Part shown: one piece after another, positions 1,555 through 41,729 of the stretch
Layout: each line of letters opens with the position of its first letter
Position numbering within the stretch: position 1 is the stretch's first letter
Source of the DNA: Bacteroidota bacterium
GTDB taxonomy: Bacteria > Bacteroidota > Ignavibacteria > UBA10030 > SZUA-254
Reading direction: 5' to 3'
DNA: 44,565 nt
NCBI GenBank assembly: GCA_020056225.1
Contig: JAGVIE010000011.1
Span: 1 to 44,565 of the forward strand
Position numbers and translations under genes: made by a program
The notes under the pieces: model-generated
Database searches by the model: none
The model's input: only the letters and a program-made list of their open reading frames with translations
Told to the model about the DNA's origin: nothing

Positions 1555-1573
1555 TTCCTATTTGCCACCTCGC

Positions 1574-1978: not shown

Positions 1979-1986
1979 ATTACTCC

Positions 1987-14385: not shown

Positions 14386-14427
14386 TTATTCTCCAATATA
14401 CATTTGCTTAAATTTTTACAGTGGCTG

Positions 14428-16795
<2,368 letters not shown>

Positions 16796-16799
<4 letters not shown>

Positions 16800-17941: not shown

Positions 17942-17954
17942 TTACCTAATTACT

Positions 17955-19070: not shown

Positions 19071-19417
19071 TGGCTTCTTCCTTTTAAGGATGGTAATTGT
19101 GTTTAATTTTGGTAACTAAAGTTACTAAATTCCCTGATAAAAATCCAGCACTTAATACGCTGTATCTATCATTATTATAATAAGTTATATTTATTTAAAA
19201 AGGTTTATAATAATAATAGATGTTGATATGTTAATAGGTCTAAAATTAATTCAAAAAGTATAGTTAATAAGGATATAGTACTGTTGAAAATATGTTTAAC
19301 ATGTATGGAAAATAAATACATTTATTAATAGTAAAAAACTAAAGGAAAAGAAAATGGACATAATGAAAAATTTTAAACATTGTATTAAGAACTATATTTA
19401 AGTTATTAACAAGTTTA
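19071..19417. other. AT-rich dnaA-dnaN intergenic region, possible part of oriC
   Basis: These 347 bp are extremely AT-rich. They contain TTATTAACA at 19403-19411, TTATCAACT at 19415-19423 (running into the dnaA stop), AGTTAATAA at 19262-19270 (reverse complement of TTATTAACT), and the 15-mer AATATGTTTAACATG at 19289-19303, which recurs on the other side of dnaA. The nonamers resemble DnaA boxes (TTATNCACA) with one or two changes. No ORF or hairpin terminator was found. It could be a second half of a bipartite origin or only a long promoter region for dnaN. Confidence 0.5.
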
Positions 19418-20878
19418 TCAACTAATGTTGCGTTCAAGTTTCGACCGTAATTGCTGAACAAGAGACTTCTGTTTTTGATCGAGCCCCATACTGTCTTCTA
19501 CACACTGATAAGCATGAATCACGGTGCTATGGTCTCGTCCACCAAAATGTAAACCTATGGTTTTCAGAGATGAATTAGTAAGCTCTTTAGCGAGATACAT
19601 AGCGATCTGTCGAGCGTTTACAACTTCCTGTTTTCTTGTTTTGGCGCGCAATAAATCTTCGGGGATCATCATATACTCTGCAACAACACGCTGTATTTCT
19701 TCAATAGTAACATGTGAACGCACTTCACCGATAATAGATCGAACAACACTCTTAGCAAGTTCTAAATCGATATCTCGGTTTTCAAGAGAAGCGCGGGCGA
19801 GCAAACCTATAAGACAACTTTCAAGTTCACGTATATTAGAAGTTATATTAGAAGCAATAAATTCTACAACATTATGTGATAAATCGATTCCATCATCACT
19901 ACTTTTTTTCTGGAGTATAGCAATTCTTGTTTCAAGGTCAGGTGGTTGGATATCGGCAGTTAAGCCCCATTGAAAACGTGATATTAATCTCTCATTAACG
20001 CTTTTCAATTCTTTTGGAGGTTTATCGGAAGAAAGCACAATTTGCTTTCCAAGATGATAAAGAGCGTTAAACGTGTGGAAAAACATATCCTGTGTTTTTT
20101 CTTTACCTGCAAAAAACTGTATATCATCAACAACAAGAAGATCAACACTGCGATAATAGTTAGAAAAATCAGCAACCCGATCTTTTTGAATAGCCTCGAC
20201 AAAATCGATAGTAAATTTTTCACTTGAAACGTATAGTATCCGATTTGTTTTGCCCGAGCTCAGTAGGTGATTACCAATAGCATGGACCAGATGTGTTTTT
20301 CCTAATCCCACACCGCCATAAATAACAAGTGGATTAAACGAAGTACCGCCCGGATTATTAGCAACAGCAAGCGCAGCTGCACGCGCAAATTGATTACTCT
20401 CACCTTTTATGTAATTGTCAAACGTATAACGTGGATTAATAGAATGATTAATAGATGGTTGCGAAATTTTTATCGTTGAAACTTTAGTGAGTAATTCCGG
20501 CACTGAAGATTTTATGCTTAAAGGTCCAGCGGGCAATTTTCCAAGGTTTGCCTGCGTAGAATCGAAGTCTATGGAAAGTAAAGAAGATTCACGCTCCTCA
20601 GATGTAATGATGTGATCAACAACAATCTCCCGACCGGTAACCTGTGTTAATGCTTCATTGATCAGAGAATAATAATGCTCTTCGAGCCAGTCTGAAAAAA
20701 ATTGACTCGGCACTTTAATTGACAATTTGTTTTTCTCGATTTGAAGTGGAATGATCGGCTCAAACCAGGTCTTATAGCTTTGGTTGTTTACTCGATCCTG
20801 AAGGATAGTGAGACAATCAGCCCAAAGCTTCTTAGTGTATTCGTTGTCGAAAATATTTTCATTATTCTGATCGTGCAT
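19418..20878 (-). CDS. dnaA: Chromosomal replication initiator protein DnaA
   Basis: This 486-residue AAA+ protein binds DnaA boxes and melts the origin. Domain I (about 14-90) has LWADCLTILQDRVNNQSYKTW for helicase and self-interaction. A short linker follows, then the AAA+ domain starting at RYTFDNYIKGESNQ. Walker A is GGVGLGKTH at 188-196 and Walker B is LLVVDDIQFFAGKEKTQ. Sensor residues lie in VNERLISRFQWG. Domain IV ends with the DNA-binding signature GGRDHSTVIHA. The gene is read away from the large plus-strand intergenic gap that carries repeats like its own binding sites. Confidence 0.98.
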   Translation of the reverse strand: MHDQNNENIFDNEYTKKLWADCLTILQDRVNNQSYKTWFEPIIPLQIEKNKLSIKVPSQFFSDWLEEHYYSLINEALTQVTGREIVVDHIITSEERESSLLSIDFDSTQANLGKLPAGPLSIKSSVPELLTKVSTIKISQPSINHSINPRYTFDNYIKGESNQFARAAALAVANNPGGTSFNPLVIYGGVGLGKTHLVHAIGNHLLSSGKTNRILYVSSEKFTIDFVEAIQKDRVADFSNYYRSVDLLVVDDIQFFAGKEKTQDMFFHTFNALYHLGKQIVLSSDKPPKELKSVNERLISRFQWGLTADIQPPDLETRIAILQKKSSDDGIDLSHNVVEFIASNITSNIRELESCLIGLLARASLENRDIDLELAKSVVRSIIGEVRSHVTIEEIQRVVAEYMMIPEDLLRAKTRKQEVVNARQIAMYLAKELTNSSLKTIGLHFGGRDHSTVIHAYQCVEDSMGLDQKQKSLVQQLRSKLERNIS

Positions 20879-20896
20879 GGCAATTAGCTGTAAGTA

Positions 20897-20911
20897 AATA
20901 TGTTTAACATG
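20897..20911. repeat. 15-mer AATATGTTTAACATG, copy upstream of dnaA
   Basis: The identical 15 bases occur at 19289-19303, downstream of dnaA. The core ATGTTTAACAT is palindromic except at its centre. It starts 19 nt upstream of the dnaA start codon, so a protein bound here could affect dnaA expression. Confidence 0.7.
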
Positions 20912-20934
20912 GTTTGAGTGTTATTAACAAAGAA

Positions 20935-20950
20935 TTCACAAATTTGTGAA
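20935..20950. promoter_or_regulatory. Perfect 16-bp palindrome upstream of dnaA
   Basis: TTCACAAATTTGTGAA is a perfect inverted repeat 57 nt upstream of the dnaA start, beside a DnaA-box-like nonamer. It has the size and symmetry of an operator for a dimeric regulator. It is too short and AT-rich, and lacks a T-tract, to be a terminator. The binding protein is unknown. Confidence 0.5.
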
Positions 20951-21267
20951 CAAAGAAATAGATATTCAATAAAAACTAGAATAATTAATATTATGAAAGA
21001 ATAAAAATTACAGAATATCTATGTTATTTTACCCTAACAATAAATTCATTAATTATTAACAAAACACTTTAAGCAGAAACAGCTAAAAACGACATATATT
21101 TATAGAAATAAATTCAAAGCAATAAATTATCAACTAATTATTAACAAAACAGTATTAAGTTTTCCCCTACCTTAAAGTACTAAGAATAGATGACCATGGC
21201 AAGTAAAATATTGCTCAAGCATTTTTTATTTGTTTTACATGTCCAATTTTTTTATATTAAATGCAAA

Positions 21268-21321
21268 TTCGGTAATATAAAATACCGGAAGAGGATTGTA
21301 AGCAAACAATCCTCTTTTTTT
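21268..21321 (+). terminator. Leader hairpins ending in an intrinsic terminator, before rpmH
   Basis: A first hairpin (TTCGGTA with TACCGGAA, one bulge, 21268-21290) is followed by a perfect 10-bp stem AGAGGATTGT/ACAATCCTCT (21290-21315) with a six-base loop and a run of T. The T-tract follows on the plus strand only, so it acts on transcripts heading into rpmH, 32 nt before its start. No gene precedes it on this strand. It is therefore either an attenuator of the rpmH-rnpA-yidD-yidC operon or the end of a short leader/small RNA. Confidence 0.72.
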
Positions 21322-21353
21322 GATTTATTTAATGAAAACATAAAGGTTTAGCG

Positions 21354-21506
21354 ATGAAAAGGACGTTCCAGCCCAGCAATATTAAGAGAAAGAACAAGCA
21401 TGGTTTTCGAGAGAGGATGAAAACAAAAGACGGGCGAAAGGTTCTGGCGAGACGTCGCGCAAAGGGTCGTTGGAAACTAACGGTTAGCGACGAAGGTAAA
21501 AATTAG
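21354..21506 (+). CDS. rpmH: 50S ribosomal protein L34
   Basis: This 50-residue, very basic protein of the large subunit is too short for a 60-residue ORF cut-off. From ATG 21354 it reads [20 protein letters not shown] and later [17 protein letters not shown], the standard L34 pattern. It has an AAAGG ribosome-binding site. The C-terminus is a few residues longer than in E. coli. rnpA follows 16 nt on, as in most bacteria near the origin. Confidence 0.96.
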
Positions 21507-21522
21507 AAATATACTTGCCGGC

Positions 21523-21927
21523 GTGTTGCAGAAACTCGAAAAAGTTGAAATCATCAGGGGAAGAAAAAAATTTAAAATAGTATATGAAAATGGAGTTGAA
21601 TTAAAAGGGAAAACTCTCCGCTGTCTGGTGGCTACAACTGGCATAAATGAATTGTTAACAAAGAGAAAGATATTATTCGGCATTTCAATTAGTCGTAAAG
21701 TCAGGCTCGCCGTAGATCGCAATCGTATTAAACGCCTAATCCGAGAATCATACCGAAGGAACAAGAGTATATTAATCGTGAACAATGAAAACTGTATAAT
21801 ACCGTCTGCATTATTGTTTATCTACCGACCTCCTGTAACCGAAAATCATTTTCCATCGTATAGTGATATTGACAACGACATAAAACACATTTTGGATAAA
21901 ATTCTTCATGGGATATTTCCTAAGTAA
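21523..21927 (+). CDS. rnpA: Ribonuclease P protein component
   Basis: This 134-residue basic protein assists the RNase P RNA in maturing the 5' ends of tRNAs. The family signature [16 protein letters not shown] is present after [10 protein letters not shown]. The start is taken as GTG 21523, 16 nt after rpmH; no ATG fits in frame. The C-terminus is longer than usual and its last 20 nt overlap yidD, which couples the two. Confidence 0.93.
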
Positions 21928-22132
21928 GCTCATCATACTTTTTATCCAAACTTATCAGAGAATTATTGCTCCACTGTTACCACCAGACACGTGTAGATTT
22001 TATCCAACTTGTTCCTCCTATGCAATTGAAGCGATTAGAAAACATGGAGTAGGCGGCGGTATCATGTTGGCGATAAAAAGAGTTTTAAGATGCCATCCAT
22101 TCAATCCGGGTGGATACGATCCAGTTCCGTAA
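21908..22132 (+). CDS. yidD: Membrane protein insertion efficiency factor YidD
   Basis: This 74-residue protein has an amphipathic N-terminal helix ([20 protein letters not shown]) and the conserved cysteine motif [19 protein letters not shown] followed by [17 protein letters not shown]. YidD helps the Sec/YidC route of membrane protein insertion. It overlaps rnpA and precedes yidC by 26 nt, the conserved order. Confidence 0.95.
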
Positions 22133-22158
22133 TAACCAATTTAAATCGGTGAAATAGC

Positions 22159-23955
22159 ATGGAAAAAAATACAATCATAGGCTTCATTTTAATCGGCTTA
22201 GTTCTAATGATTTGGCTATGGATAAGCACCCCCCCCCAAAAACCGCTTAAAGTCAACGATGATAGCACTAAAACAACTCAAACAAAGACACAACGAGAAA
22301 TAAAACCAGCGGCAACCGACATAACTAGTTCGAAAAAGAAATCAAAAGAAGATTCTCTTGGCAGGTATTTTTCTCACCTCAATGTGGGAAAAGGAAAGAT
22401 ATTTATCATTGAGACCGATATTTATCGCGCCGAAATATCATCGCTTGGAGGCTCAATTCTAAAATGGGAACTGAAACAATACAAAACGTGGGATAAATAT
22501 CCTGTAAATTTGGTAAACTCAACAAGAGGGGGAGACTTCCACCTTCTTTTCTATACCTCTGACGGCAAACTGGTTAACACTAAAGGTTTATACTTTCAAC
22601 CATCGTTTACCCAGAACCAGATTTTTAAAATTGGCGAGAACGATTCATTAACTATTGAAATGATTCTTAGCGTGAACAATGAGAGCCGAATAGTTAAGAC
22701 TTTAAAATTTTATGGAAATCAATACTCATTTAACGCTATCTATCGTTTTGATAAGATGGAGTCTATTATTGCTAATTTTGCATACCAAGTGACCTGGTCA
22801 TCTGGCATGCCTTATTCCGAACATAATAGCGTTGACGAATCGAATTTTTCTAAAGCTTTTGCTTATGCGGGTGGTGAGTTAACAGAAATAGACGCCAGCA
22901 ATTTGAATGAGCCAGCGATGGACAGCATCTCCGGAAAAGTTGCATGGATAGCCGAAAGAAACAAATATTTCGCTATAGCAATTATTCCAAGGGGCAAGGA
23001 TAGCCAGGGCGCATATATTGAAGGACGGAGATCGGGACTTCCCGATGAAGGAGCGCGGGAAGATTATAATATTGCAATAGAGATGCCGTTTATGAGCCAC
23101 ACTACAGAGTCTGATAGTTTTACGGTATACCTGGGACCACTCGGGTTTGATGCCGTAAAAAAGTATAATGTTGGGTTAGATCAGATAATGAGCCTGGGTG
23201 CGGCGTGGATAATACGCCCAATTTCAGAATACGTTATTATTCCGGTGTTTAGATTTTTGAAAATATTTATTCCCAACTACGGTGTTGTTTTAATAATATT
23301 CTCATTTATCATAAAAATAGTACTTCACCCGCTAACCAAAAGTAGTATGAAGTCGATGCAGAAAATGCAGGCGCTGCAGCCGATGATGAATGAGATTCGT
23401 GAAAAATATAAAGATGATCCGCAGAAAATGAATCAGCAGGTTATGAGATTGTATAAAGAATATGGCGTCAACCCGGCGGGCGGATGTCTTCCCATGCTCC
23501 TTCAGCTTCCCATCCTTTATGCATTGTGGGCCGTGTTTAGCTCGGCGATTGAGTTGAGGCAGGCATCATTCATATGGTGGATCCAGGACCTCTCTATTCC
23601 CGATGTGGTTGCGCGACTTCCTTTTCGTATTCCGATTTTTAATATAACTGAGATTAGCGGGCTTGCGCTTCTCATGGGCGTAACTATGTTTATTCAACAA
23701 AAAATGTCAGTTAAAGACCCCCGTCAAAAAATGATGGTATGGTTAATGCCTATTCTGCTAACACTCATGTTTAATAGTTTTCCATCTGGTTTGAATCTAT
23801 ATTATTTTGTATTCAACTTATTATCAATAGCACAGCAGGCATGGATTAACCGACAACATAAAGGGGAGCCGCTAAGAAAAATTGAAGTTAAAAAATCTTT
23901 CGGTGGATGGATAAGTAAAATTGCCAAAGATCTTCCCGCCAAGCAGAAACACTAA
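22159..23955 (+). CDS. yidC: Membrane protein insertase YidC
   Basis: This 598-residue inner-membrane insertase folds and inserts proteins with or without SecYEG. It has an N-terminal anchor (IIGFILIGLVLMIWLWI), then a periplasmic beta domain (about 70-340) as in Gram-negative YidC. The five-helix core begins at YVIIPVFRFLKIFIPNYGVV, with KSSMKSMQKMQALQPMMNEI, the family hallmark cytoplasmic loop, and GGCLPMLLQLPILYALW. The large periplasmic domain supports a two-membrane cell. A run of nine C (22229-22237) sits at codons 24-27 without breaking the frame. Confidence 0.96.
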   Translation: MEKNTIIGFILIGLVLMIWLWISTPPQKPLKVNDDSTKTTQTKTQREIKPAATDITSSKKKSKEDSLGRYFSHLNVGKGKIFIIETDIYRAEISSLGGSILKWELKQYKTWDKYPVNLVNSTRGGDFHLLFYTSDGKLVNTKGLYFQPSFTQNQIFKIGENDSLTIEMILSVNNESRIVKTLKFYGNQYSFNAIYRFDKMESIIANFAYQVTWSSGMPYSEHNSVDESNFSKAFAYAGGELTEIDASNLNEPAMDSISGKVAWIAERNKYFAIAIIPRGKDSQGAYIEGRRSGLPDEGAREDYNIAIEMPFMSHTTESDSFTVYLGPLGFDAVKKYNVGLDQIMSLGAAWIIRPISEYVIIPVFRFLKIFIPNYGVVLIIFSFIIKIVLHPLTKSSMKSMQKMQALQPMMNEIREKYKDDPQKMNQQVMRLYKEYGVNPAGGCLPMLLQLPILYALWAVFSSAIELRQASFIWWIQDLSIPDVVARLPFRIPIFNITEISGLALLMGVTMFIQQKMSVKDPRQKMMVWLMPILLTLMFNSFPSGLNLYYFVFNLLSIAQQAWINRQHKGEPLRKIEVKKSFGGWISKIAKDLPAKQKH

Positions 23956-23978
23956 AATATTAATAGAAGTTTTATTTT

Positions 23979-24010
23979 AAAACCCCGCCCGGAAAAGGAT
24001 GGGGTTTTTT
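23979..24010 (+). terminator. Intrinsic terminator after yidC
   Basis: The stem AAAACCCC/GGGGTTTT encloses a 14-base loop and is followed by TTATT on the plus strand. It lies 23 nt after the yidC stop and separates the ribosomal-protein/insertase operon from mnmE. Confidence 0.8.
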
Positions 24011-24068
24011 ATTAATTGAATTTCACTCGGGAGTTTTTTAAATTTAGAATAGACCTCATTTAATAACT

Positions 24069-25469
24069 ATGAATAACAAAGACGACACTATTGCTGCGAT
24101 TGCTACCCCAATCGGTATTGGGGGAATTTCTGTAATACGGATTTCTGGTAAGGGTGCTATTGAAAAAATTGGCAAAATTTTCAAAGGAAACAACGCTCTC
24201 TCGCACGCCAAATCACACACTGCTCATTATGGCAAAATAGTATGTGGGGATGGAAGAACAATTGACGAAATCGTTGCAACTATTTTTCGTTCGCCACGCT
24301 CTTACACATCAGAAGATATGGTTGAAATTAGTTGCCACGGTGGATATTACGTCACACAGGCGATATTGCAGGCGATCATCCATAATGAGATAAGACTTGC
24401 TGAGCCGGGCGAATTTACAAAAAGAGCTTTTTTGAGTGGTCGGATTGATTTAGTCCAAGCTGAAGCAGTAGCTGATATGATTAACGCCAGCACGGAAATA
24501 TACCACCGATTTGCGGTCCACCAATTGGAAGGTAGGCTTTCTAACGAGATAAATGAAATCAGAGATAAGTTAGTAAATCTTTGTAGTCTATTAGAACTTG
24601 AACTCGATTTTTCGGAAGAAAATTTAGAGGTTGTGAAAAAAGCACAAATTAAAACGGAAATAGAATCAATTACTAGAACGATACAGCAACTATCTCGTTC
24701 CTACAGTTACGGAAAACTTTATCGAGAGGGTGCAAAAGTAGCTATCGTAGGGAAACCCAATGTAGGTAAATCCAGTATTCTCAATACTTTACTAAACGAA
24801 AATAGAGCAATTGTAACCGAAATTCCCGGAACAACAAGAGATATTATCGAAGAAAAATTTGTTATTGATGGTGCATTGTTCAGCATTGCAGATACTGCTG
24901 GTATCCGAACGAGTAAAGATATAATTGAATCTATGGGAATTGAACTCGCAAAAAAAAAAATAAATATGGCCGATATTATTCTAATTGTAGTGGACCCAAC
25001 CCAAGATATTGAAAGCGAAGACGACGACATCCTCGAATTAATAGGAAACATCAAAAGTAATATTGTTGGGAATAAACTGCTTATTGTTAATAAAATCGAT
25101 ATAGCTATGCCAAAATCTGATATGAATAATTATATAAAAAAATTCTTACTGACTCCGATATTTCTTTCAGCCAAGACTGGCTATGGGCTGAACAAATTAA
25201 AACGAGCAATGTTTTCCGTAGTTGTGGAAAGCCAGCGCACTGATTATCATGGTAACTCAATTATTATCAATGGGAGGCATAAAGAATGCTTAAGAAAGGC
25301 AGAAATACATTTAGCACAAGCCCTTGAAGGAACAGTCAGACAAGCGAGCAATGAGTTCATAGTATTTGACATTAATACAGCAATTAACGATTTAAGCGAA
25401 ATAATAGGAACCGTAATAACAGAGGAAATACTTAATAATATTTTTTCAAAATTCTGTATAGGTAAATAG
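24069..25469 (+). CDS. mnmE: tRNA modification GTPase MnmE
   Basis: With MnmG, this enzyme installs the carboxymethylaminomethyl group on wobble U34 of certain tRNAs. The N-terminal tetrahydrofolate-binding domain starts [20 protein letters not shown]. The helical domain is interrupted by a G domain with G1 [12 protein letters not shown] near residue 227, G2/G3 PGTTRDI and DTAGI, and NKID. The protein ends in the invariant FCIGK with the catalytic-loop Cys. At 466 residues it is of normal length. An A11 run (24950-24960) lies within the G domain in frame. Confidence 0.97.
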
Positions 25470-25472
25470 AAT

Positions 25473-25488
25473 TGTTTCACGTGGAACA
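25473..25488. promoter_or_regulatory. parS centromere site (ParB binding)
   Basis: TGTTTCACGTGGAACA lies 12 nt before the mnmG start and is a palindrome with one mismatched pair. It matches the ParB/Spo0J consensus TGTTNCACGTGNAACA closely. Its distance of about 4.5 kb from the dnaA-side gap is typical of origin-proximal parS sites. Confidence 0.88.
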
Positions 25489-25500
25489 GATAATCAATCA

Positions 25501-27408
25501 TTGAAAACAAAATACGACATAGTAGTTATCGGAGGCGGACATGCTGGTATTGAAGCGGCGTTGTCGGCAGCAAGGATGGGGTGTAATACACTGTTAGTTA
25601 CTACTGATCAAAAATCTATTGGAAGGATGTCGTGTAATCCAGCAATTGGTGGCACCGCAAAAGGTCACATCGTAAAGGAGATTGATGCGCTTGGTGGTGA
25701 AATGGGTAAAATTGCAGATAAAACCGGAATACACTTCAAAATGCTTAACTTATCTAAAGGTCCCGCGGTATGGTCACCGCGGTGCCAATCTGATAGAAAT
25801 TGGTATTCTGAAGAAGCACAAATATGCATATATAATCAAGACACACTTGATGTATTTGAAGATTCTGTTGTCGACATAGTAATTACCGAGAATAGACATT
25901 CGCAAAAAGACCACGTGGAGGCGATTTATACTAAGTCTGGAACGAAGATAGATTGTAAATGCTTGATATTATGCCCAGGGACTTTTTTGAGAGGAATCTT
26001 ACACACTGGGCTTAGATCTATTCCCGGTGGAAGGTATGGTGAAAAGCCATCGAACAAGATCACAAAAAACTTAGAGAAAAAAGGACTAATAATCGGACGC
26101 TTTAAAACTGGAACACCTCCACGAATTGATTTTAGTAGTATGGATCTATCGCAATTGATAATTCATCATGGGGACGTAGAACCAACACCGTTTTCGCATC
26201 AAACAAAATTAATTACAAACACACAAACACCGGTCTATATGTCATTCACTAATATCAAAACACATAACGTTCTCAGATCAGGATTCAGCGAATCACCACT
26301 ATTTAGTGGAAGAATAAAAGGAGTTGGACCAAGGTATTGTCCGTCAATAGAGGATAAAATAAATCGATTTTCTGATCGTGAGCGTCATCAAATATTTCTT
26401 GAACCGGAAGGGTATAATACTAACATAGTTTATGTAAACGGGTACTCGACTAGTCTATCAAAACACATCCAAATCGAAGGTTTGAAGACAATCCCAGGAT
26501 TACAATCCGTAAAGATGCTACGCCCAGGCTACGCCGTCGAGTATGATTATTTTCCACCCCAACAATTAAAGCTTACCCTTGAATCTAAAAAAATTGAAGG
26601 TTTATATCTCGCAGGCCAAATAAACGGTACATCAGGATACGAAGAAGCGGCAGCTCAAGGTTTGATGGCGGGAATTAATGCGGCACTAAAAATTAAAGGA
26701 GAGGATCCGTTTATATTAAAAAGATCTCAAGCATATATAGGTGTCATGATTGACGACTTAATAAATAAAAATACAGAAGAACCGTACCGTATGTTCACAT
26801 CGCGAGCCGAACACAGATTAGCGCTAAGACAAGATAATGCCGACTTGAGATTGATGGAGTTTGGGCATAAATATGGGCTAATATCAAATGAGATATATAC
26901 TAGAGTGAAAAATAAATCAGAAATTATTAAGGAGGGAGTAATTTTTTTTAAATCTAAGAATGTGTCAGCAAACGAAATAAATCTGTTTCTTGTCTCCAAG
27001 GGTTCAGCAGTAATTAATCAGGGCAGCAAACTATCGAAAATAATTCAACGCCCCGAGATTTATCTAAATGATCTGATAATAATACCGACGCTAAGGGAAG
27101 ATAATTTTATTAAAACTCGATTATCTATGCTCGACCTAAAAGAAAAAAAAGAAATACTCCAACAAATAGAGATTGAACTAAAATATGAAGGATATCATAC
27201 ACGCCAGATGGAGCAGATAGAGAAATTTGAAAAACAAGAATCTATTACAATCCCGGAGGATTTTAATTTTGAAAAAATTAAATCACTATCCACAGAAGGA
27301 AAGGAAAAATTATCGCGAATAAGACCATCCTCGGTTGGTCAAGCTGCCCGCATCAGTGGCGTAACAAATGCAGATATCTCAGTATTGTTAGTTCACCTTC
27401 ACCGATAA
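25501..27408 (+). CDS. mnmG: tRNA uridine-5-carboxymethylaminomethyl synthesis enzyme MnmG (GidA)
   Basis: This 635-residue FAD enzyme is the partner of MnmE. The FAD site is [20 protein letters not shown] at the N-terminus. [20 protein letters not shown], then [10 protein letters not shown] and [19 protein letters not shown], are family blocks, and [15 protein letters not shown] starts the C-terminal tRNA-binding part. The start is TTG 25501, supported by homology to the usual N-terminus; no upstream ATG is in frame. It follows mnmE with only the parS site between. Confidence 0.96.
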
Positions 27409-27416
27409 TCATCCTA

Positions 27417-27432
27417 CGTTTCATGTGGAACA
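27417..27432. promoter_or_regulatory. Second, weaker parS-like site
   Basis: CGTTTCATGTGGAACA, directly before the rsmG ATG, differs from the 25473 site at two positions. It keeps most ParB contact bases, but the central CpG is changed to TpG, so it may be a low-affinity site. Confidence 0.6.
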
Positions 27433-28191
27433 ATGAACCATAAACCTAATATTAACAGTAACTTAAAAATCGCCGACAACCACATCATGTTTATTCGAGA
27501 TATATTCGAAAAGAATAATTATAAGATCGAAAATTCACAACTCAACGCACTTGGATCGTATGTGGCAGAATTATTAAAATGGAATCAGGCAATAAACTTA
27601 ATTTCCCGCAAGGATACGGGCAAGATATGGATACAGCATATTCTATCCTCGATTTCATTTCTATTCATGTTTGAATTTAGAAAAAATTCTACAGTATTGG
27701 ATATAGGAACCGGAGGAGGGTTGCCGGGAATTCCACTATCTATTCTTTGTCCAGAACTTCGCTTCACGCTTATTGATTCAATTCAAAAAAAAATCAAAGC
27801 AGTTCAAAATATAATTGAAAATACAACATTGGAAAATGTAACCACTGTGTGTGCACGCGCAGAGGAGTTGAGTAAGAATAAAAAATTCCAAAATAAATTT
27901 GATTATGTTATTACCCGGTCAGTAGCTCCAGCAAAAAAATTATTAGAGTGGAGCAAACCGTTCTTGGTCAGCCAAAAGGATCCCTCACCCGCCCATGAAT
28001 CTATCATAACTCAAAGAAAAGTAATACCAGTAGGGTCGATAATATTGTTAAAAGGCGGAAATCTTCAAAGCGAAATAGAGGAAGCAAGGATCGAGCACCG
28101 CCCTCGGTTTATTCAAATCTTTCCAATCGCGATAAACGGAATCGAACCAACAGAATTGTTTGAAAAAAAAGTAATCATAATACAACCCTAA
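27433..28191 (+). CDS. rsmG: 16S rRNA (guanine527-N7)-methyltransferase RsmG (GidB)
   Basis: This 252-residue SAM-dependent enzyme methylates G527 of 16S rRNA. The N-terminal helical part contains LLKWNQAINLISRKD. The SAM site is VLDIGTGGGLPGIPLSILCP, and ITRSVAPAKKLLEWSKPFL is the typical block for 16S contacts. It is longer than many homologues because of an N-terminal extension and a loop near SQKDPSPAHES. Genome context (mnmE-mnmG-rsmG near dnaA) is classical. murQ follows 7 nt later. Confidence 0.94.
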   Translation: MNHKPNINSNLKIADNHIMFIRDIFEKNNYKIENSQLNALGSYVAELLKWNQAINLISRKDTGKIWIQHILSSISFLFMFEFRKNSTVLDIGTGGGLPGIPLSILCPELRFTLIDSIQKKIKAVQNIIENTTLENVTTVCARAEELSKNKKFQNKFDYVITRSVAPAKKLLEWSKPFLVSQKDPSPAHESIITQRKVIPVGSIILLKGGNLQSEIEEARIEHRPRFIQIFPIAINGIEPTELFEKKVIIIQP

Positions 28192-28198
28192 TTGAAAT

Positions 28199-29149
28199 AT
28201 GAAAAAAAATAGAACCATCTTCGATCAAATTAAAATTCTGTCATCGGAACAAAGAAATAATAAAAGTCATAATTTTGACACAATGAGAACAAATAAAATT
28301 TTAACAGTTATTAACGATGAAGATGGCTTCGTAATAAGTGCCGTAAAAAAAGAAATCCCGTATATTTCAAAAGCAATAGCATTAGTTATTGATTCATTGA
28401 AAACGGGAGGCAGACTGATTTATGTCGGCGCCGGCACGAGCGGTAGACTGGGAGTTCTGGATGCATCGGAATGCCCGCCTACGTTTGGCACAAACCCGTC
28501 AATGGTCCAGGGAATTATCGCGGGAGGGAAAAAAGCAATCTTCAATTCTCAGGAAGGGGCCGAGGACGATACGGTGGCAGCCTTGAAGGATATACGAAGT
28601 AAAAAGATTCAAGAAAAAGATGTTGTTTGTGGAATTGCCGCCAGCCTGCGTACCCCGTATGTTATGAAAGCGGTTATAGAAGCGAAAAGGGAAGGAGCAA
28701 AAACAATATATATTACCACAAATCCACGTTCAATATTAAATAAAAAAGAGTTTAAGACTCTAAGGGATTGTCTTGATGTAGCAATTTGTCCCGAAGTAGG
28801 TCCGGAAGTAATTATGGGATCAACCCGAATGAAATCAGGCACAGCGCAAAAACTTGTTCTCAATATGATTACAACAACCTCAATGATTCAACTTGGTAAA
28901 GTTTACGAAAACATGATGGTCGATCTCAAAATGAACAGCAAGAAACTTGAAGAACGAGCCAAGCGTGTTCTGATGATTAGTACGGGCGTAGATTATCAAA
29001 CCGCTTCAAATGTTTTAAAGAAAGCCGGCGGACATGTTAAAACTGCAATTGTTATGATTAAGACGAATTCGTCAGTTACACAGGCGCGTGCACACCTAAG
29101 AAAAGCCAACGGGTTCGTTCGAATAGCTATTCAGGAAAAGAGAAAATGA
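28199..29149 (+). CDS. murQ: N-acetylmuramic acid 6-phosphate etherase
   Basis: This 316-residue SIS-domain enzyme cleaves the lactyl ether of MurNAc-6-phosphate to give GlcNAc-6-phosphate in cell-wall recycling. The phosphosugar-binding loop is YVGAGTSGRLGVLDASECPP and the catalytic Glu region is SQEGAEDDTVAALKDI. CPEVGPEVIMGSTRMKSGTA is the MurQ/GCKR family signature. The C-terminal UBA-like helices (KVLKKAGGHVKTAIVM) fit. It is probably co-transcribed with rsmG. No MurNAc kinase or transporter is adjacent. The stop overlaps the next gene by 4 nt. Confidence 0.94.
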   Translation: MKKNRTIFDQIKILSSEQRNNKSHNFDTMRTNKILTVINDEDGFVISAVKKEIPYISKAIALVIDSLKTGGRLIYVGAGTSGRLGVLDASECPPTFGTNPSMVQGIIAGGKKAIFNSQEGAEDDTVAALKDIRSKKIQEKDVVCGIAASLRTPYVMKAVIEAKREGAKTIYITTNPRSILNKKEFKTLRDCLDVAICPEVGPEVIMGSTRMKSGTAQKLVLNMITTTSMIQLGKVYENMMVDLKMNSKKLEERAKRVLMISTGVDYQTASNVLKKAGGHVKTAIVMIKTNSSVTQARAHLRKANGFVRIAIQEKRK

Positions 29150-33281: not shown

Positions 33282-33809
33282 ATGAAAACATTATTTTTAC
33301 TTCTGTTCATGACAACGATAGTTGCATGGGCACAGCCTCGCGAGTTTGACGATGATGATGATGCACCGGTCGGACAGATGTTTGGAGGCGGTCGATTTAT
33401 TGAAAAGCTGGATTTGAATGCGGATCAACAAAAACAATTCGACAAGCTACACACCAATAAGCAGAAAAAACAAATCGATCTTAGATCAAAGATTCAAACG
33501 CTTCGGTTGGATTTAAGGGAATTGTTTAATGAAGATTCACCTAATAAATCAAACATTGCATCGAAAATGAATGAGATTAGCAAACTCCAAACAGAAGCGA
33601 AGCTAAGTCATCTCGATCTATGGTTTGAAGTGAATAAAATTCTTAAACCGGATCAACAAAAGCTCTGGAAAGAACACCGCATGATGATGGGCTCAAGAGC
33701 TGGGCGCCAAGGCAATGGTGGCATGCGGGATGAAATGAGAAAGCCAATGGGAAGACATGGGCGCGGAGGAGACCGCATGGAATGCAAGCCGAATTGCTTA
33801 GGTGACTAA
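33282..33809 (+). CDS. Spy/CpxP-like periplasmic LTxxQ protein
   Basis: This 175-residue secreted protein has a signal peptide (MKTLFLLLFMTTIVAWAQ) and an acidic run (EFDDDDDAP). A helical domain follows with two degenerate LTxxQ motifs, LNADQQKQF and LKPDQQKLW, as in Spy/CpxP chaperones and zinc-resistance proteins. The C-terminus is rich in Met, His, Arg and Gly (HRMMMGSR, GRHGRGGDRMEC), which could bind metal such as copper or nickel. It has a GGGG ribosome-binding site and its own terminator, so it is monocistronic. A dedicated sensor kinase is not adjacent. Confidence 0.82.
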   Translation: MKTLFLLLFMTTIVAWAQPREFDDDDDAPVGQMFGGGRFIEKLDLNADQQKQFDKLHTNKQKKQIDLRSKIQTLRLDLRELFNEDSPNKSNIASKMNEISKLQTEAKLSHLDLWFEVNKILKPDQQKLWKEHRMMMGSRAGRQGNGGMRDEMRKPMGRHGRGGDRMECKPNCLGD

Positions 33810-34077: not shown

Positions 34078-34797
34078 ATGCGAATACTTTCAATTCTAGT
34101 CGGATTCATAGTAACGCTCCAGATGGGTTTCGGTCAAAGCGTCATTAAATCGAAACATGATTTATCCAGCAATAATGACGGCGTGACCCAATGGCAGAGT
34201 ACAGACGAAAAACAAGTTTGTATATTTTGTCATACGCCTCATTCTCCGACTACAACTATACTACCCCTTTGGAATAAATCTCAGCCGAGCAACACGGTGT
34301 TCTCGGCGTATTCATCTCCGACAATGGAAGGAGTGCCTAACAGCGATCTAAGCGGAAGTTATTCACTTTTGTGTTTGAGTTGTCATGATGGTTCAACACC
34401 GATGGATGCTCTTCTTAATCCGTCGGAAATTGGTAAGCCGCACATGGCAGGCGGATACACCCGACTTGGAGACGTATATTATCCCGGAAGCCCATTCGCC
34501 CAATTCCCGGGCGCAAATATTGGTGAAGGATACGGAGGATCGGCTGGCACAAACTTAACAAACGATCATCCCGTCAACATTGTGTACGATGCTTCACACC
34601 CCGGTGTAATGAAAGGCAAATTGTTTGATCCGGAATCGAAATCAAGCGGACTTGGTGGAACTGTTACCGTGAAGATGCTCTTCGAAAATAAAGTAGAATG
34701 TCCATCATGCCATGATCCGCATAACCCAACCATTGTTCCGTTTCTGCGTCTTTCAACTTCAAACGGAACCCTCTGCATTGCATGTCATAATAAATAG
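34078..34797 (+). CDS. Tetrahaem c-type cytochrome
   Basis: This exported protein of 239 residues starts at ATG 34078, which puts the signal peptide MRILSILVGFIVTLQMGFGQ at the very N-terminus; a TTG at 34012 would add 22 non-signal residues. Four CXXCH haem-binding motifs are present: CIFCH at 48-52, CLSCH at 99-103, CPSCH and CIACH near the C-terminus. The SKHDLS and CHTPH-type context is the style of small multihaem proteins in metal- or nitrogen-cycling bacteria. It is first of a three-gene cluster whose last gene is a large cytochrome, so electron transfer across the periplasm or envelope is inferred. Confidence 0.88.
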   Translation: MRILSILVGFIVTLQMGFGQSVIKSKHDLSSNNDGVTQWQSTDEKQVCIFCHTPHSPTTTILPLWNKSQPSNTVFSAYSSPTMEGVPNSDLSGSYSLLCLSCHDGSTPMDALLNPSEIGKPHMAGGYTRLGDVYYPGSPFAQFPGANIGEGYGGSAGTNLTNDHPVNIVYDASHPGVMKGKLFDPESKSSGLGGTVTVKMLFENKVECPSCHDPHNPTIVPFLRLSTSNGTLCIACHNK

Positions 34798-34809
34798 TGA
34801 GTATAAATT

Positions 34810-36027
34810 ATGAGACAAATATATAGACGGATATTATTTCCAATTTTGTTTACGGTTATCTTCACAACGTTGTACGCAAGCGGTCCATCGTTAACCTTAA
34901 AAAGCTCGTGGGGTACAACTCTCTTTCGTCCTACCCGCATAGCGGTGAACAACAAAGGCTCGATAGCCGTAGTTGAATATCATAGAAAGCAGATTAATAT
35001 ATTCAATGAAAGTCGTCGGTTGTTGTATAGCGTTCCTGTTTCCCATGCTCCACTGAGTGTCGCTTTTACAGCAGACGACAATCTGTACGCAGGTGTTGAA
35101 AATGATGTTTTTAAACTGAACGCGAACGGCGAGGTTATTGATAAATTTTCTCTTCATGGTTTTACTCCCAAATTTCCCTCCGATATTGATGTGGATGCCG
35201 CTGGTTCGGTATATGTAGTTGACCGGGAACAATGCAAAGTTTTTGTGTGCAATCAAATTGGTGAGATAAAATATTCTTTCGGATCGGCAGGGTCACAGCA
35301 GGGTGAATTTCGCTCACCTGTGGGTATTGCGATAGATGAGACCGCCGGTGAGTTGATTATTGGTGATGCAGGAAACTCGCGCATTCAGGTTTTTTCTCTC
35401 GGCGGAGAATTTCGCCGGATGTTCGGTCAGCACATCAAGCAAATCGATACTGCATGGCAAACGGTGGGAACGTTTGCGCGAATTCAGGGCGTAGCTGTTG
35501 ATACCCGGCATCGTATTTATGTTACAGACAGCGGCTTAGACCATGTGCAAATATTTGATGCCGTTGGAAATCATCTTGGCTTTATAGGCAAAGAAGGACT
35601 TAGAAATTCCCGACTTCGTGTTCCTATGGGAATTAAAGCCTGCAAATCCGAGCGATTATTCATCACGTCTATGGCAGGATCGGAAATTAAAGAATACACA
35701 ATTCAATCCGCCACCGATGTCTCATCCCAGCCTATCGAAACACCCAAGGAATTTGTTCTTGAACAAAATTACCCCAACCCGTTCAATCCATCTACCAGAA
35801 TAAATTTTTCGTTGCCTGAACGAGAATGGGTAACATTGAAAATATACGATGTAATCGGACGTGAAGTTGTGGTACTGGCTAACGAAGACTATAAAAGCGG
35901 GAAGTACACTATCGAATGGGACGGAAGGAACAGCGCGGGCGTGCCGACATCATCGGGCATCTATTTCTACCATTTACAAGCGGGAGAGAAGTATTCGCAA
36001 ACGAACAAAATGGTATTTCTTAAATAA
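34810..36027 (+). CDS. NHL-repeat beta-propeller protein with type IX secretion sorting domain
   Basis: This 405-residue protein has a signal peptide (RILFPILFTVIFTTLYAS), then NHL-type repeats forming a propeller: FRPTRIAVNNKGSIAVVEY, FPSDIDVDAAGSVYVVDRE, FRSPVGIAIDETAGELIIGD and RIQGVAVDTRHRIYVTDSG. The C-terminal 90 residues carry EQNYPNPFNPST, an FlgD/Ig-like fold, and end KMVFLK, the T9SS type A sorting domain that exports proteins and anchors them on the surface. It lies 12 nt after the tetrahaem cytochrome gene and 11 nt before the large cytochrome gene, so it is a surface partner of the same cluster. Confidence 0.9.
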   Translation: MRQIYRRILFPILFTVIFTTLYASGPSLTLKSSWGTTLFRPTRIAVNNKGSIAVVEYHRKQINIFNESRRLLYSVPVSHAPLSVAFTADDNLYAGVENDVFKLNANGEVIDKFSLHGFTPKFPSDIDVDAAGSVYVVDREQCKVFVCNQIGEIKYSFGSAGSQQGEFRSPVGIAIDETAGELIIGDAGNSRIQVFSLGGEFRRMFGQHIKQIDTAWQTVGTFARIQGVAVDTRHRIYVTDSGLDHVQIFDAVGNHLGFIGKEGLRNSRLRVPMGIKACKSERLFITSMAGSEIKEYTIQSATDVSSQPIETPKEFVLEQNYPNPFNPSTRINFSLPEREWVTLKIYDVIGREVVVLANEDYKSGKYTIEWDGRNSAGVPTSSGIYFYHLQAGEKYSQTNKMVFLK

Positions 36028-36038
36028 GGACGCCACCC

Positions 36039-38444
36039 ATGCAACCACGAATAACGATTTTTATTTGCGCGCTAATTCTTGCATCAACAACATTTCTTTT
36101 AGCGCAAAAACCATCGGGCATTTTAGGTGTTGATGCGCCCCATGGAGATTCAACGAAATTATCTAATCTTTGTGCCGATTGCCATTTCGGATTCAATGCG
36201 CCTAATACTCCCGCTACGCTCAACGACAAATGCTTAAGCTGTCACAATGGAACAACAGCCGCCGCGGCAGAAACACACCGCGGGTTAAGTTGTACTACAT
36301 GCCACAATCCTCATCATCAGGAACAGGAACGAGCATACGGCAGTACATATTCAAAATTAGTGCGGACAACTATTAACCAACGGCCGGTAAGACTTACGGC
36401 TTCTTCAGGCGTTAACTCCTTCGCCGACGGCGACAGTGTGTATAACGGTGTTTGCGAAGTTTGCCATTCTACAACAAAATATCATCGCAATGATGGAACA
36501 GGACAGCCGCACAACAATGGCGCTAATTGTACATCATGTCATCCTCACGATGTTGGATTTTCCGGCGCTTCCGGCGGACCTAATTGTTTGGGTTGTCATC
36601 AATCGGCAATGGGATCGCGCCGCGCCGTAGGTCCCGATTTTGCAACCACAAAACCGCATCACCCGCTAACGTTCAACCCGGGCGGAGATCTTAATCTGCC
36701 GGCAAATAATAATTGCCTCATCTGCCATAACGATTATCCCAATATGCACGCAGACGGAAAAATAGATTTCAACCCCGACCCGGATCATTCAGGATCGCAG
36801 GAGTGGAGCGGCGTCTATCCCGATGCGTGGTGCATGGATTGTCACGATGGTGATAATCCCGATCCAAACTATCGTCTCGGCGGAATAGTTGCCCCTGATA
36901 AGCGCGCGTTTTATTCAACTGCCAATGCACATGGGAATGGAACCGCATTTTCCGGTCGCTGCATCGATTGTCATAATCAGACGAATGAACATACAGCCGC
37001 GGTCAAGTTTTACTCAACTTTCTATATGGATGATAGTGAAGAAAACATGTGTTATGGATGTCACGGAGGAGGCGCCAATGTAAATACCGGTGGACGATAT
37101 ATGGAAAACATTCGCGTTGCATACACTACCGGAACCATCACGAGTAAATCTGTACATGCGGTTTCTGCCGATCTAAATACGTCGGATGGAAAGGTGTTTT
37201 GCAGAAACTGTCACGATCCCCATTTGCTTAATCACACAACAAATCTCTTAATAGATCCGAAAAATATTACACAGCCATGGACAGGCATGCGCCGCGATCT
37301 ATGTTTCCAGTGTCACGAGAGAAACACAACAACGCTTCACGGAAATCATAACGGTGTTTCATGCAGCCAATGTCACGACGTCATGAATATGACCATAAGC
37401 ACGCAGTGCATTGAATGTCACCTGCCGCACTCCTCGGCGACAACAAACTTACTGCAGGTGAACACCTCAGGTAAAACATTATCCGTATCACCCTCCAGCG
37501 CGAACGTTGTTGTGAGCAACTCTCAACAATTCAACGCGATAACCTCTCCGGCTTTTACAGAATTTTCCCAGACGATAGTCAATAGATTTACGGACTGGGG
37601 ATTGGTAACAACAAGCGGCGGCAGTCCGGGATCAGAGTTTTCAAGGATAGCAAATATTTCGCTTGATCGCTCGATCGGATTTGATCCAAACGGCAATGGA
37701 GGCTGGGGACTTATCACTGTAACAAGTACGATTACTATTCCCGATAACACTGCAATCGAAGATCTCGATGTCTATTTTAACGCAACACACCATTACCGCG
37801 GCGATATTGATCTAACGCTTACACATATTCAAACCGGAACTACAGTTCACGTCCAAGCCTCAGATTGGGGCGATTGGGAACCGAACCTGAATTTTTATTA
37901 TGATTCGGAGTCGCCGAACAATCAGCATGGCAGTGTCAGCCCGCGCTCTACCGCTGAATCGCTCACAAAATTCAACGGTGAATTGATCGGGGGAGATTGG
38001 GTTTTAACAATACTTGATACCTGGCCCTGGGATAATTCTACCATACCATCAAGCCCTGATTATTGCATAGTGAACTCATGGGGTTTGAAAGTCAACGGCA
38101 GCGTGCTCGGATCGTTTACGAGCGCCGGCCTATTCCAAACATCTTATGCAGGAGCGGGAACGGTATATGCAACCCTGCACAATGGGAAAATTTACCCGGT
38201 ACAGAGCGGACTCAATGTAGGAGTTTTTGAGAATCCACTACCAATTCAATCAACAGCTTCTCTCAACATTACTACAGTTCTTGGAAAAGTCGCCGCGACA
38301 ATTGAATCACCAAACCCATCATATTTCGTAACACCGCTTGTTCATCCAACCAAATCCCTTAAACAGTCCCAAACAATCGAATTAGGCACAAACGGACATA
38401 CTTCTTTAAACGGTAAGTCGTGCAGCTCGTGTCACGGCAGATAA
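36039..38444 (+). CDS. Fifteen-haem c-type cytochrome with inserted P-domain
   Basis: This 801-residue exported protein has a signal peptide (residues 1-22). Fourteen CXXCH motifs lie between 45 and 461 (CADCH, CLSCH, CTTCH, CEVCH, CTSCH, CLGCH, CLICH, CMDCH, CIDCH, CYGCH, CRNCH, CFQCH, CSQCH, CIECH), and one more, CSSCH, sits at 795-799, two residues from the end. Between them a Big2-like Ig domain (LSVSPSSANVVVSNSQQF; finished by SFTSAGLFQTSYAGAGTVYA) appears to be split by a proprotein-convertase P-domain (about 540-687: NATHHYRGDIDLTLTH, GDWVLTILDTWPWD, VNSWGLKVNG). P-domains usually follow subtilisin-type proteases; no protease is present. The role is presumably long-range electron transfer at the envelope. 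Confidence 0.9.
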   Translation: MQPRITIFICALILASTTFLLAQKPSGILGVDAPHGDSTKLSNLCADCHFGFNAPNTPATLNDKCLSCHNGTTAAAAETHRGLSCTTCHNPHHQEQERAYGSTYSKLVRTTINQRPVRLTASSGVNSFADGDSVYNGVCEVCHSTTKYHRNDGTGQPHNNGANCTSCHPHDVGFSGASGGPNCLGCHQSAMGSRRAVGPDFATTKPHHPLTFNPGGDLNLPANNNCLICHNDYPNMHADGKIDFNPDPDHSGSQEWSGVYPDAWCMDCHDGDNPDPNYRLGGIVAPDKRAFYSTANAHGNGTAFSGRCIDCHNQTNEHTAAVKFYSTFYMDDSEENMCYGCHGGGANVNTGGRYMENIRVAYTTGTITSKSVHAVSADLNTSDGKVFCRNCHDPHLLNHTTNLLIDPKNITQPWTGMRRDLCFQCHERNTTTLHGNHNGVSCSQCHDVMNMTISTQCIECHLPHSSATTNLLQVNTSGKTLSVSPSSANVVVSNSQQFNAITSPAFTEFSQTIVNRFTDWGLVTTSGGSPGSEFSRIANISLDRSIGFDPNGNGGWGLITVTSTITIPDNTAIEDLDVYFNATHHYRGDIDLTLTHIQTGTTVHVQASDWGDWEPNLNFYYDSESPNNQHGSVSPRSTAESLTKFNGELIGGDWVLTILDTWPWDNSTIPSSPDYCIVNSWGLKVNGSVLGSFTSAGLFQTSYAGAGTVYATLHNGKIYPVQSGLNVGVFENPLPIQSTASLNITTVLGKVAATIESPNPSYFVTPLVHPTKSLKQSQTIELGTNGHTSLNGKSCSSCHGR

Positions 38445-38474: not shown

Positions 38475-38513
38475 CAAAAGCCGCCGCATCGCAAGGTGCG
38501 GGGGTTTGTTTTT
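38475..38513 (+). terminator. Intrinsic terminator after the cytochrome cluster
   Basis: CCGCA pairs with TGCGG around TCGCAAGG, extended by AAAGCC/GGGTTT-type pairing, with TTTGTTTTT following on the plus strand, about 30 nt after the stop. Confidence 0.7.
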
Positions 38514-40021: not shown

Positions 40022-40453
40022 CTATGCCATATTTGTCTGTAGTGCTTTAAGAATTTTACAGATAGACTTTTCCACGCGGTGTTTTATGTCGTATTCCCAG
40101 ACTCTGCAAACTTTCCAACCCCGTTTCTTCAAGAGTTTATTTACTTCCTTATCACGTTCCCTGTTTCGCTGAATCTTTTTTTTCCAATAGTAAATATTAG
40201 ATTTTGGTACTGTACATCGTTTTGGATGTCCATGCCAAAAATCAGAATCAATGAAGACGGCGACTTTCTTTTTTCTAAAAACAATATCAGGTTTACCCAC
40301 TATTGATGTAACATGCCTTGAGAAGTAAACACCTTTTCTTTTCAAAGCTCTCTCGACGATTCGTTCGGGAGTTGTACCGACCGATCGTATGTTTTGCATG
40401 TTTTTTCTTCTTTGAGCCTTTGTAAGATTATCCACTCTTTTTGTGTTTTTCAA
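40022..40453 (-). CDS. vsr: Very short patch repair endonuclease Vsr
   Basis: This 143-residue mismatch nuclease nicks at T:G mispairs left by deamination of 5-methylcytosine. Family blocks are all present: RRKNMQNIRSVGTTPE, GVYFSRHVTSIVGKPDIVF (catalytic Asp), KKVAVFIDSDFWHGHP, KSNIYYWKKKIQRNRERDKE and GWKVCRVWEYDI. The start is TTG 40453 or GTG 40435; the former overlaps the upstream fragment by 26 nt. Its usual partner, a cytosine methyltransferase, survives only as an N-terminal scrap 1.3 kb away, so Vsr here may lack its methylated substrate. Confidence 0.93.
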   Translation of the reverse strand: MKNTKRVDNLTKAQRRKNMQNIRSVGTTPERIVERALKRKGVYFSRHVTSIVGKPDIVFRKKKVAVFIDSDFWHGHPKRCTVPKSNIYYWKKKIQRNRERDKEVNKLLKKRGWKVCRVWEYDIKHRVEKSICKILKALQTNMA

Positions 40454-40735
40454 AATTCATGTAGTAAGTCTCATCATCTATTTTGTAAAACTCAACATCT
40501 GTTCTCCCGTATCGGATCAAATCTTCTTTGGTAACAAGCGCCCCGGAGGGTAGCCCAAGTCTATGCCTAAAGTATTCTCCCAACAAACTGTTATTCGACG
40601 GTGAATGAATCGCTTTACCATTATCTTGAGCGCGTGAACAGATTAATACTTTACCGTCATCTGTTAGTACGGTGAAATGTTTTAGTGGGAAGGTATTAGG
40701 AATTAGATCCTTACCTAGGAAGGTCTACTACAATT
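40428..40735 (-). pseudogene. NgoFVII-type restriction endonuclease, C-terminal fragment
   Basis: The minus strand encodes, without a start codon, IPNTFPLKHFTVLTDDG, ICSRAQDNGKAIHSPSNNS, LLGEYFRHRLGLPSGALVTK, then LIRYGRTDVEFYKIDDETYY and a stop at 40428. I recognise this as the C-terminal domain of NgoFVII-type (phospholipase-D-fold) restriction enzymes. The catalytic N-terminal half with its HxK motifs is missing, and the frame is closed by a TAG near 40727. It is therefore inactive. Confidence 0.65.
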
Positions 40736-40936
40736 TAATTCTACTTCATTTTCTCTGCTTGAGGGACAATCATTTTGGATTGAATTGCACATTGAACATT
40801 TATTCTGATTTATTGGATGGATATAATTGCTTTTACATTCACAGTCCCAATATTCGAGATTTAAAGTAATACTACCAATGTACTGAATCCGCTCCCCATA
40901 ACTATTCTTTGTATCAAACCATATCTTTGGAGTCAT
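40715..40936 (-). CDS. Small cysteine-rich (zinc-ribbon-like) protein
   Basis: This 73-residue ORF from ATG 40936 has two Cys pairs, CEC in LEYWDCECKSNYIHP and CSMC in QNKCSMCNSIQND, with a further Cys, the spacing of a small zinc ribbon, then SSRENEVEL. The EYWDCEC...NYIHP arrangement looks conserved to me, but I cannot name the family. No clear ribosome-binding site is seen. It lies between two degraded restriction-system genes and may be part of that system or a stray piece of one. Confidence 0.5.
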   Translation of the reverse strand: MTPKIWFDTKNSYGERIQYIGSITLNLEYWDCECKSNYIHPINQNKCSMCNSIQNDCPSSRENEVELNCSRPS

Positions 40937-40949
40937 ATTATTATGGGAT

Positions 40950-41729
40950 TTAATTTATCCAAGCTGTTGGTTTTGTATGGTAACTAATTTGTTTTGATTT
41001 AATTTCTTTTTGCTGGAAACTCAAGTTCTCCGTGGGATTGAAAACGACTCCAAATTTGGGAATATCGATAAGATTGCAAACGACAACCAGAGCATACTCA
41101 TTTTGATACTCTTTTGCTTTTAAGAATTCATTTTCGGTTAATCGAACGCTTCCGTAATGCGTTCGGAGTCCTTTTATTTCCGCAAGGTAAAATCTATGTT
41201 TAACCTCAATCTGAAAATCGTAGCCATCACCAAATAAACGTGCATCCTCCAATGTACCATCTCTAAAATAATCGATCGTTTCGTAATTCCTCATGAAAAA
41301 GAGTTCGGCTTCCTGCCCAGTAATTTGTAACTGTTTGAATTTACTTTTAAGGATTGGACTAATAGATTTGTCTGTTTTAAATGTTCTATCAGCTCCTTTT
41401 TCAAGATAAAGTTTTACGACATCTACAAACGATTTACAATCCATTGTGCCAAACAAGGAATCAATAAAAATTTTTCTATGAATATAAGCATCCCCTTTTT
41501 GCCACCAGCCTTTTCTCCCGCTATCAAAAAAGGGATCAAACAAATCTTGGCGATTCTTCACAGTCCCAACTGTTTCTGCAATACCAATCTTAACTACGTA
41601 TTCGAAAAAGCTATTTTTGGTTTTAAAGCCGAATGCAGAGACAAAACGTGTGTCAAATTTAGCTAAACCATAGCCAATAAGATTTAGAATATCATGGTTT
41701 TTATGTTTGCCGTGTTTAGAATTTATCAT
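40950..41729 (-). CDS. DUF3883-type PD-(D/E)XK nuclease, putative restriction component
   Basis: In this 259-residue protein the C-terminal half carries the DUF3883 pattern: ARLFGDGYDFQIEVK (acidic site), YLAEIKGLR (the E-x-K catalytic pair), GSVRLTENEFLKAKEYQNEY and ALVVVCNL. This fold is common in restriction and defence proteins that cut modified or unmodified DNA. The N-terminal half is helical and has no named match. It overlaps the methyltransferase scrap by 4 nt, so the two were a restriction-modification pair. The ORF itself looks intact. Confidence 0.75.
   Translation of the reverse strand: MINSKHGKHKNHDILNLIGYGLAKFDTRFVSAFGFKTKNSFFEYVVKIGIAETVGTVKNRQDLFDPFFDSGRKGWWQKGDAYIHRKIFIDSLFGTMDCKSFVDVVKLYLEKGADRTFKTDKSISPILKSKFKQLQITGQEAELFFMRNYETIDYFRDGTLEDARLFGDGYDFQIEVKHRFYLAEIKGLRTHYGSVRLTENEFLKAKEYQNEYALVVVCNLIDIPKFGVVFNPTENLSFQQKEIKSKQISYHTKPTAWIN

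Follow-up and report, generated by a model that had tools for sequence, protein, structure and literature searches.

A predicted fifteen-haem cytochrome with a P-domain apparently nested in an Ig-type domain, encoded in one unit with an OmcE homologue in Ignavibacteria

Outer-membrane decahaem cytochromes of the MtrC/OmcA type combine haem parts with beta domains at the cell surface, and P-domains typically accompany subtilases. To our knowledge, no tip or base protein that would join cytochrome filaments to the cell or to their acceptors has been described. OmcZ of Geobacter sulfurreducens is an 8-haem filament cytochrome from which the subtilisin-like protease OzpA removes the tandem C-terminal Ig domains (PMC9473688). 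A histidine from the next subunit serves as ligand to one of the haems in filaments of OmcE and OmcS (PMC9473688, PMC12954529), and in PgcA, also of Geobacter, the haem motifs are separated by PTx repeats (PMC5732950). Porin-cytochrome complexes, and occurrence on anodes, have been reported for Ignavibacteria (PMC7399161).

The window, which is the whole 44,565-nucleotide stretch of DNA that was analysed, belongs to a 3.5-Mb genome from this class, where it is placed on contig C26, and encodes an 801-residue protein that can be compared with each of these systems. As in OmcZ, a multihaem part is followed by a C-terminal beta-sandwich, here a probable one of Ig type, in a predicted setting of extracellular electron transfer (EET), but OmcZ, with 8 haems and two Ig domains, lacks a P-domain, and its Ig part is cleaved with no haem after it. 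The protein could not be assigned to the OmcZ family, there being no OmcZ match in a PDB sequence search up to E 1. A homologue of OmcE, the tetrahaem filament cytochrome of Geobacter (PDB 7tfs), is encoded two genes upstream in the same unit, although the 801-residue protein is itself no OmcE homologue by sequence in the PDB search. It resembles the extracellular cytochrome PgcA in that a lone CXXCH motif is reached via a poorly conserved stretch; PgcA, however, is built from three haem motifs and tandem PTx repeats and carries a lipid attachment site, whereas here the lone motif is joined by 14 more predicted haems and by folded beta domains, and repeats are absent. Its P-domain is by profile, and weakly by fold, that of the convertases (PF01483; furin, Kex2 and bacterial subtilases), but no protease domain accompanies it and it appears to lie inside an Ig domain of a cytochrome. 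In contrast to the MtrC/OmcA-type proteins, it has no match to their Pfam family, no lipobox and another domain order. What is new is the domain combination; the protein most likely belongs to the multihaem EET cytochromes.

Haem motifs and orthologues

The open reading frame (36039..38444, forward strand, as are all features below unless stated otherwise) starts with ATG and encodes the 801 residues in a single uninterrupted frame. Inspection of the polypeptide sequence reveals 15 CXXCH motifs, at residues 45, 65, 85, 139, 164, 183, 226, 265, 308, 338, 388, 422, 442, 457 and 795, compared with ∼0.07 expected by chance (arithmetic from 32 cysteines and 42 histidines in 801 residues). The first fourteen lie within residues 45-461 and the fifteenth at 795-799, two residues before the C-terminus, where the initial annotation had placed a lone motif. 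Residues 1-22 (36039..36104) were recognized by eye as a probable Sec signal peptide without a lipobox, and profile searches for a C-terminal sorting domain of the type IX secretion system (T9SS) gave no TIGR04183 or PF18962 match.

Over the 14-haem part (residues 45-461, 36171..37421), defined by the motifs, Pfam and orthologue alignment, the Pfam matches were to cytochrome c7/c3 and doubled-CXXCH families: PF14522 (E 3.4e-19, 68.9 bits against a cut-off of 24.8) and PF09699 (E 3.7e-11, 43 bits against 20.6). By its motifs and these c3/c7-type profiles, the protein qualifies as a multihaem c-type cytochrome with predicted haem attachment.

Full-length orthologues were found in three further genomes of the same order: G013 (Chlorobiaceae bacterium SW.3.66), G007 and G036 (an Ignavibacteriae bacterium from groundwater), at 70, 65 and 64% identity to the window protein, respectively. 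G013 and G007 represent one other genus of the window's family, and G036 belongs to a different family. Of the order's 98 genomes, 4 carry the fused architecture; in a phylum-wide sample of 395 genomes, only the window's genome and that of one orthologue matched. A scan of 84,980 species with short exact peptides, which detects close relatives only, returned G013, G036 and a single gammaproteobacterial protein that corresponds to the haem part alone (29% identity over residues 27-465), and a plasmid search with the 801-residue protein gave no matches. In these searches the architecture is conserved and rare. Its presence in only four species, together with a search of the available literature that found no paper joining a P-domain with a multihaem cytochrome, is consistent with the earlier statement that no described family with this domain order was known. 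A frame error or fusion artefact is ruled out, since the same full-length architecture is read in four genomes.

Alignment of the four orthologues (the window protein included) showed 17 further invariant histidines in the haem part, plus His434. In the G007 protein, haem 13 and the nearby His434 are both absent, and this joint loss suggests that His434 is the distal ligand of haem 13.

The beta module and the last haem

The P-domain comprises residues 557-687 (37707..38099), as delimited by the PF01483 profile and fold comparison. In a whole-protein Pfam scan, PF01483 (P_proprotein) matched residues 574-669 with E 4.8e-4 and 20.6 bits, marginally under the cut-off of 21. In a single-domain search of the genome, the window protein scored 23.1 bits, above that cut-off, and two orthologues scored 24.4 and 32.2 bits, the higher value being that of G036. 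All four orthologues are matched by the profile (best E 1.5e-7), and residues 557-687 are assigned as a P-domain on this basis. A domain had been proposed at 540-687; its presence is confirmed by the profile, and its extent is slightly shorter by fold comparison.

Fold searches with a weak model of the C-terminal part placed furin, Kex2 and immune inhibitor A among the top matches at residues 557-687, with Foldseek probabilities mostly of 0.97-1.00 and Z ∼6.5. The AlphaFold model of the C-terminal part had a mean pLDDT of 35.6, reaching 50-60 at best in the P-domain, and the full-length model (mean pLDDT 27.5) was kept out of the fold searches; the alignments used for modelling contained three sequences, with the G007 orthologue excluded. 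Because Z ∼6.5 is also reached by unrelated beta-sandwiches, the fold matches are taken as supporting evidence only. A PDB sequence search with an alignment of the C-terminal part gave no matches.

Flanking the P-domain, strands of a Big_2-type Ig domain had first been seen by eye. Pfam Big_2 (PF02368) did not match the intact protein. An excision (breakpoint) scan asks which cut restores an Ig domain, here scored with a Big_2-type model built from 18 domains of the same order. The best cuts in three orthologues ran from ∼498 to 684-688. Excision of ∼499-687 raised their scores from 12.2, 7.3 and 11.4 bits to 23.8, 24.5 and 23.0 bits, compared with at most 7.7-10.8 bits for shuffled controls. 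The fourth orthologue reached 14-15 bits at this cut and its best score, 17.4 bits, at another, with shuffles at 11.1. Against Pfam's own Big_2 model the stitched sequence scored weakly (11.6 bits, E 0.28). The scan supports, more strongly in three orthologues than in the fourth, a P-domain nested in a Big2-like domain. The first strands would comprise residues 478-498 (37470..37532) and the remaining strands residues 688-731 (38100..38231). The cuts define an insert of ∼190 residues, which consists of 58 residues without a family match (499-556, 37533..37706, from the alignment and the scan) and the P-domain. Motif count, Pfam and excision scan together agree with the order originally read: fourteen CXXCH motifs, Ig strands, P-domain, Ig strands and a lone haem motif.

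As an insert in the Ig domain, the P-domain could be neutral or purely stabilizing in a general electron-transfer cytochrome that lacks a specific docking function, a reading that we regard as doubtful, though it deserves some weight. Ig loops tolerate domain insertion, and in convertases P-domains classically serve a stabilizing function. Against this, the P-domain is among the best conserved parts of the protein: its identity between the four orthologues (68-78%) exceeds that of haem-part residues 201-470 in several pairs and lies far above that of the linker that follows the module. Such conservation argues for constraint beyond mere tolerance. Cys676 in the P-domain, which lies outside the haem motifs and has no partner cysteine, is invariant in all four.

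The 801-residue protein contains the only P-domain matched in the window's genome (profile search). None of the other P-domain proteins checked in the order and in a sample of the class contains CXXCH, some of these loci containing the gene only partly; most end in T9SS-type tails, as judged by eye. In these Ignavibacteria-type genomes, the presence of a P-domain does not indicate a protease.

Beyond the Ig domain, a linker (residues 732-786, 38232..38396) precedes a single-haem motif consisting of invariant His787 and C795-x-x-C-H799 (38397..38435). Identity across the four orthologues is 73-88% in haem-part residues 25-200 and only 28-51% in residues 736-790, and the linker is probably flexible. 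The invariance of His787 and C795-H799, next to a stretch that varies so widely, lends some support to the earlier suggestion that electrons are handed out through the last haem. By analogy with OmcE and OmcS, it is conceivable that the tethered haem, or a histidine, reaches into a neighbouring subunit.

The position of this haem also bears on whether the Ig/P module is a removable C-terminal extension that preserves solubility or prevents activity until cleavage. The usual company of P-domains, the subtilases, would suit such processing. OmcZ supplies the precedent of C-terminal Ig domains cleaved from behind a haem domain (PMC9473688). The haem motif beyond the module is, however, conserved in all four orthologues, so that cleavage would discard a haem; moreover, the three-gene unit encodes no protease by Pfam, and the genome offers no P-domain match outside the cytochrome. 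With the last haem lying behind the beta module, simple OmcZ-like removal is disfavoured, and we consider it quite improbable.

The three-gene unit and its surroundings

The cytochrome gene is the last of three, preceded by genes for a tetrahaem cytochrome and an NHL beta-propeller. The unit is compact, its genes being spaced by 12 and 11 bases, and this order is identical in all four genomes. The tetrahaem cytochrome (34078..34797) was listed as an open reading frame from 34012, with the ATG at 34078 preceding a signal peptide. It matched OmcE (PDB 7tfs) with E 7e-31, and its four CXXCH motifs and the KHD, TPH, DHP and PH histidines were aligned; it is by sequence an OmcE homologue, for which filament formation is only a potential property. 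The propeller (34810..36027; PF01436, E 5.9e-21) ends in a T9SS type A sorting tail (TIGR04183, 40.6 bits against a cut-off of 23) that also matches PF18962, and the T9SS component SprA was found in all four genomes. The combination of an OmcE-type cytochrome with a T9SS-tailed propeller in one unit is the most informative fact about the locus, and it was overlooked in the initial annotation.

Terminator-like hairpins lie before and after the unit, the latter with a T-rich stretch at 38484..38511, although shuffled sequence yields such hairpins at least as often. Upstream, behind its own terminator-like hairpin, is a gene for a Spy-like Metal_resist protein (33282..33809), identified by family match and also a neighbour in two orthologous loci; it adjoins the unit in three genomes and carries cysteines in its C-terminal tail. 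Elsewhere in the window, a chromosome origin region was recognized by eye at 11833-29149, with gyrA, gyrB, recF, dnaN and dnaA on one side and yidC, mnmE, mnmG and rsmG on the other (a family search confirmed the assignments of mnmG and rsmG only). Also by eye, two reverse-strand open reading frames at 757-3183 resemble RHS-repeat core ends (GARxYDSRIGR and similar), and the reverse strand at 40022-41729 has a frame that resembles a Vsr-type endonuclease and, at a distance of ∼500 bases, a frame for a possible restriction enzyme.

The unit has typA (bipA) as its neighbour in the window's genome, G007 and G013. Cytochrome identity is 63-70% across all pairs of the four genomes. Between G007 and G013, which are of one genus (loci L009 6633-9008 and L010 6864-9251), the cytochromes are 63% identical compared with 94% for the OmcE-like protein and 97% for TypA, so that either the cytochrome evolves fast or one copy was replaced. 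TypA of the window's genome is 85% identical to that of its family members and 79% identical to that of G036; either horizontal transfer to G036 or fast change or replacement would explain the pattern when TypA and cytochrome are compared. Multihaem cytochromes of Geobacter show raised rates of mutation and exchange, with fast change or replacement (PMC12977616).

In G036, the unit sits between 12-haem and 13-haem genes of a large cluster that encodes a sensor kinase, response regulators, an 8-haem cytochrome, a propeller, another tetrahaem cytochrome, a barrel-like protein and 12-, 3- and 13-haem cytochromes. A similar cluster, with several OmcE-like proteins, lies apart from the unit in the window's genome, G007 and G013. 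In the window's genome, an EET-like cluster on contig C18 (42000-61999) contains a sensor kinase, response regulators, 8-, 4-, 10- and 13-haem cytochromes, propellers resembling NHL lipoproteins and a 557-residue barrel-like protein. The latter had no Pfam match; from its look and place, the barrel-like protein is a putative outer-membrane porin.

Proposed role

Domains and neighbours suggest an extracellular location, a partnership with the OmcE-like protein, a docking role for the beta module and a direction of electron flow. The reading that we favour, with modest confidence, is that the 801-residue protein is an exported EET cytochrome that partners the OmcE-like protein, with the Ig/P module serving in docking and the fifteenth haem tethered. 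The cytochrome would be exported by Sec, matured in the periplasm and act at or outside the outer membrane, having been made together with the potential filament cytochrome and the T9SS-secreted propeller. Electrons would travel along the 14-haem part, and the beta module that follows, an Ig domain with the P-domain in one loop, would hold or position the protein at a partner, the surface matrix or a mineral. On its variable linker, the fifteenth haem would provide a mobile electrical link to a haem of a partner or to an acceptor outside. Docking or adhesion, or a role as a surface module, as had been suggested for the P-domain, is compatible with the gene context.

Against this reading, the protein has neither a T9SS tail nor a lipobox, and in the window's genome the unit is not adjacent to the barrel gene. 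The plain signal peptide and the lack of a lipobox and a T9SS tail would suit a periplasmic electron reservoir or relay. Ig and P domains, however, are typical of surface or secreted proteins, the P-domain proteins found in the class mostly bear T9SS-type tails, and the unit itself encodes T9SS cargo and an OmcE-like cytochrome; a periplasmic role is accordingly judged rather unlikely.

A more specific and unlikely proposal is that the 801-residue protein forms a dedicated tip, base or junction piece of OmcE-like filaments, in which the P-domain within the Ig domain would grip a partner, for example the propeller secreted by T9SS, and the fifteenth haem would plug into the filament haem chain or an outer-membrane conduit. 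If true, cytochrome nanowires would have an accessory part of a kind not described before. Conserved as a set, the OmcE-like cytochrome, the secreted propeller and the large cytochrome, with its grafted beta module and its tethered haem, are a concrete candidate for filament attachment outside Geobacter, and suggest a new design for the parts that pass electrons to the cell exterior.
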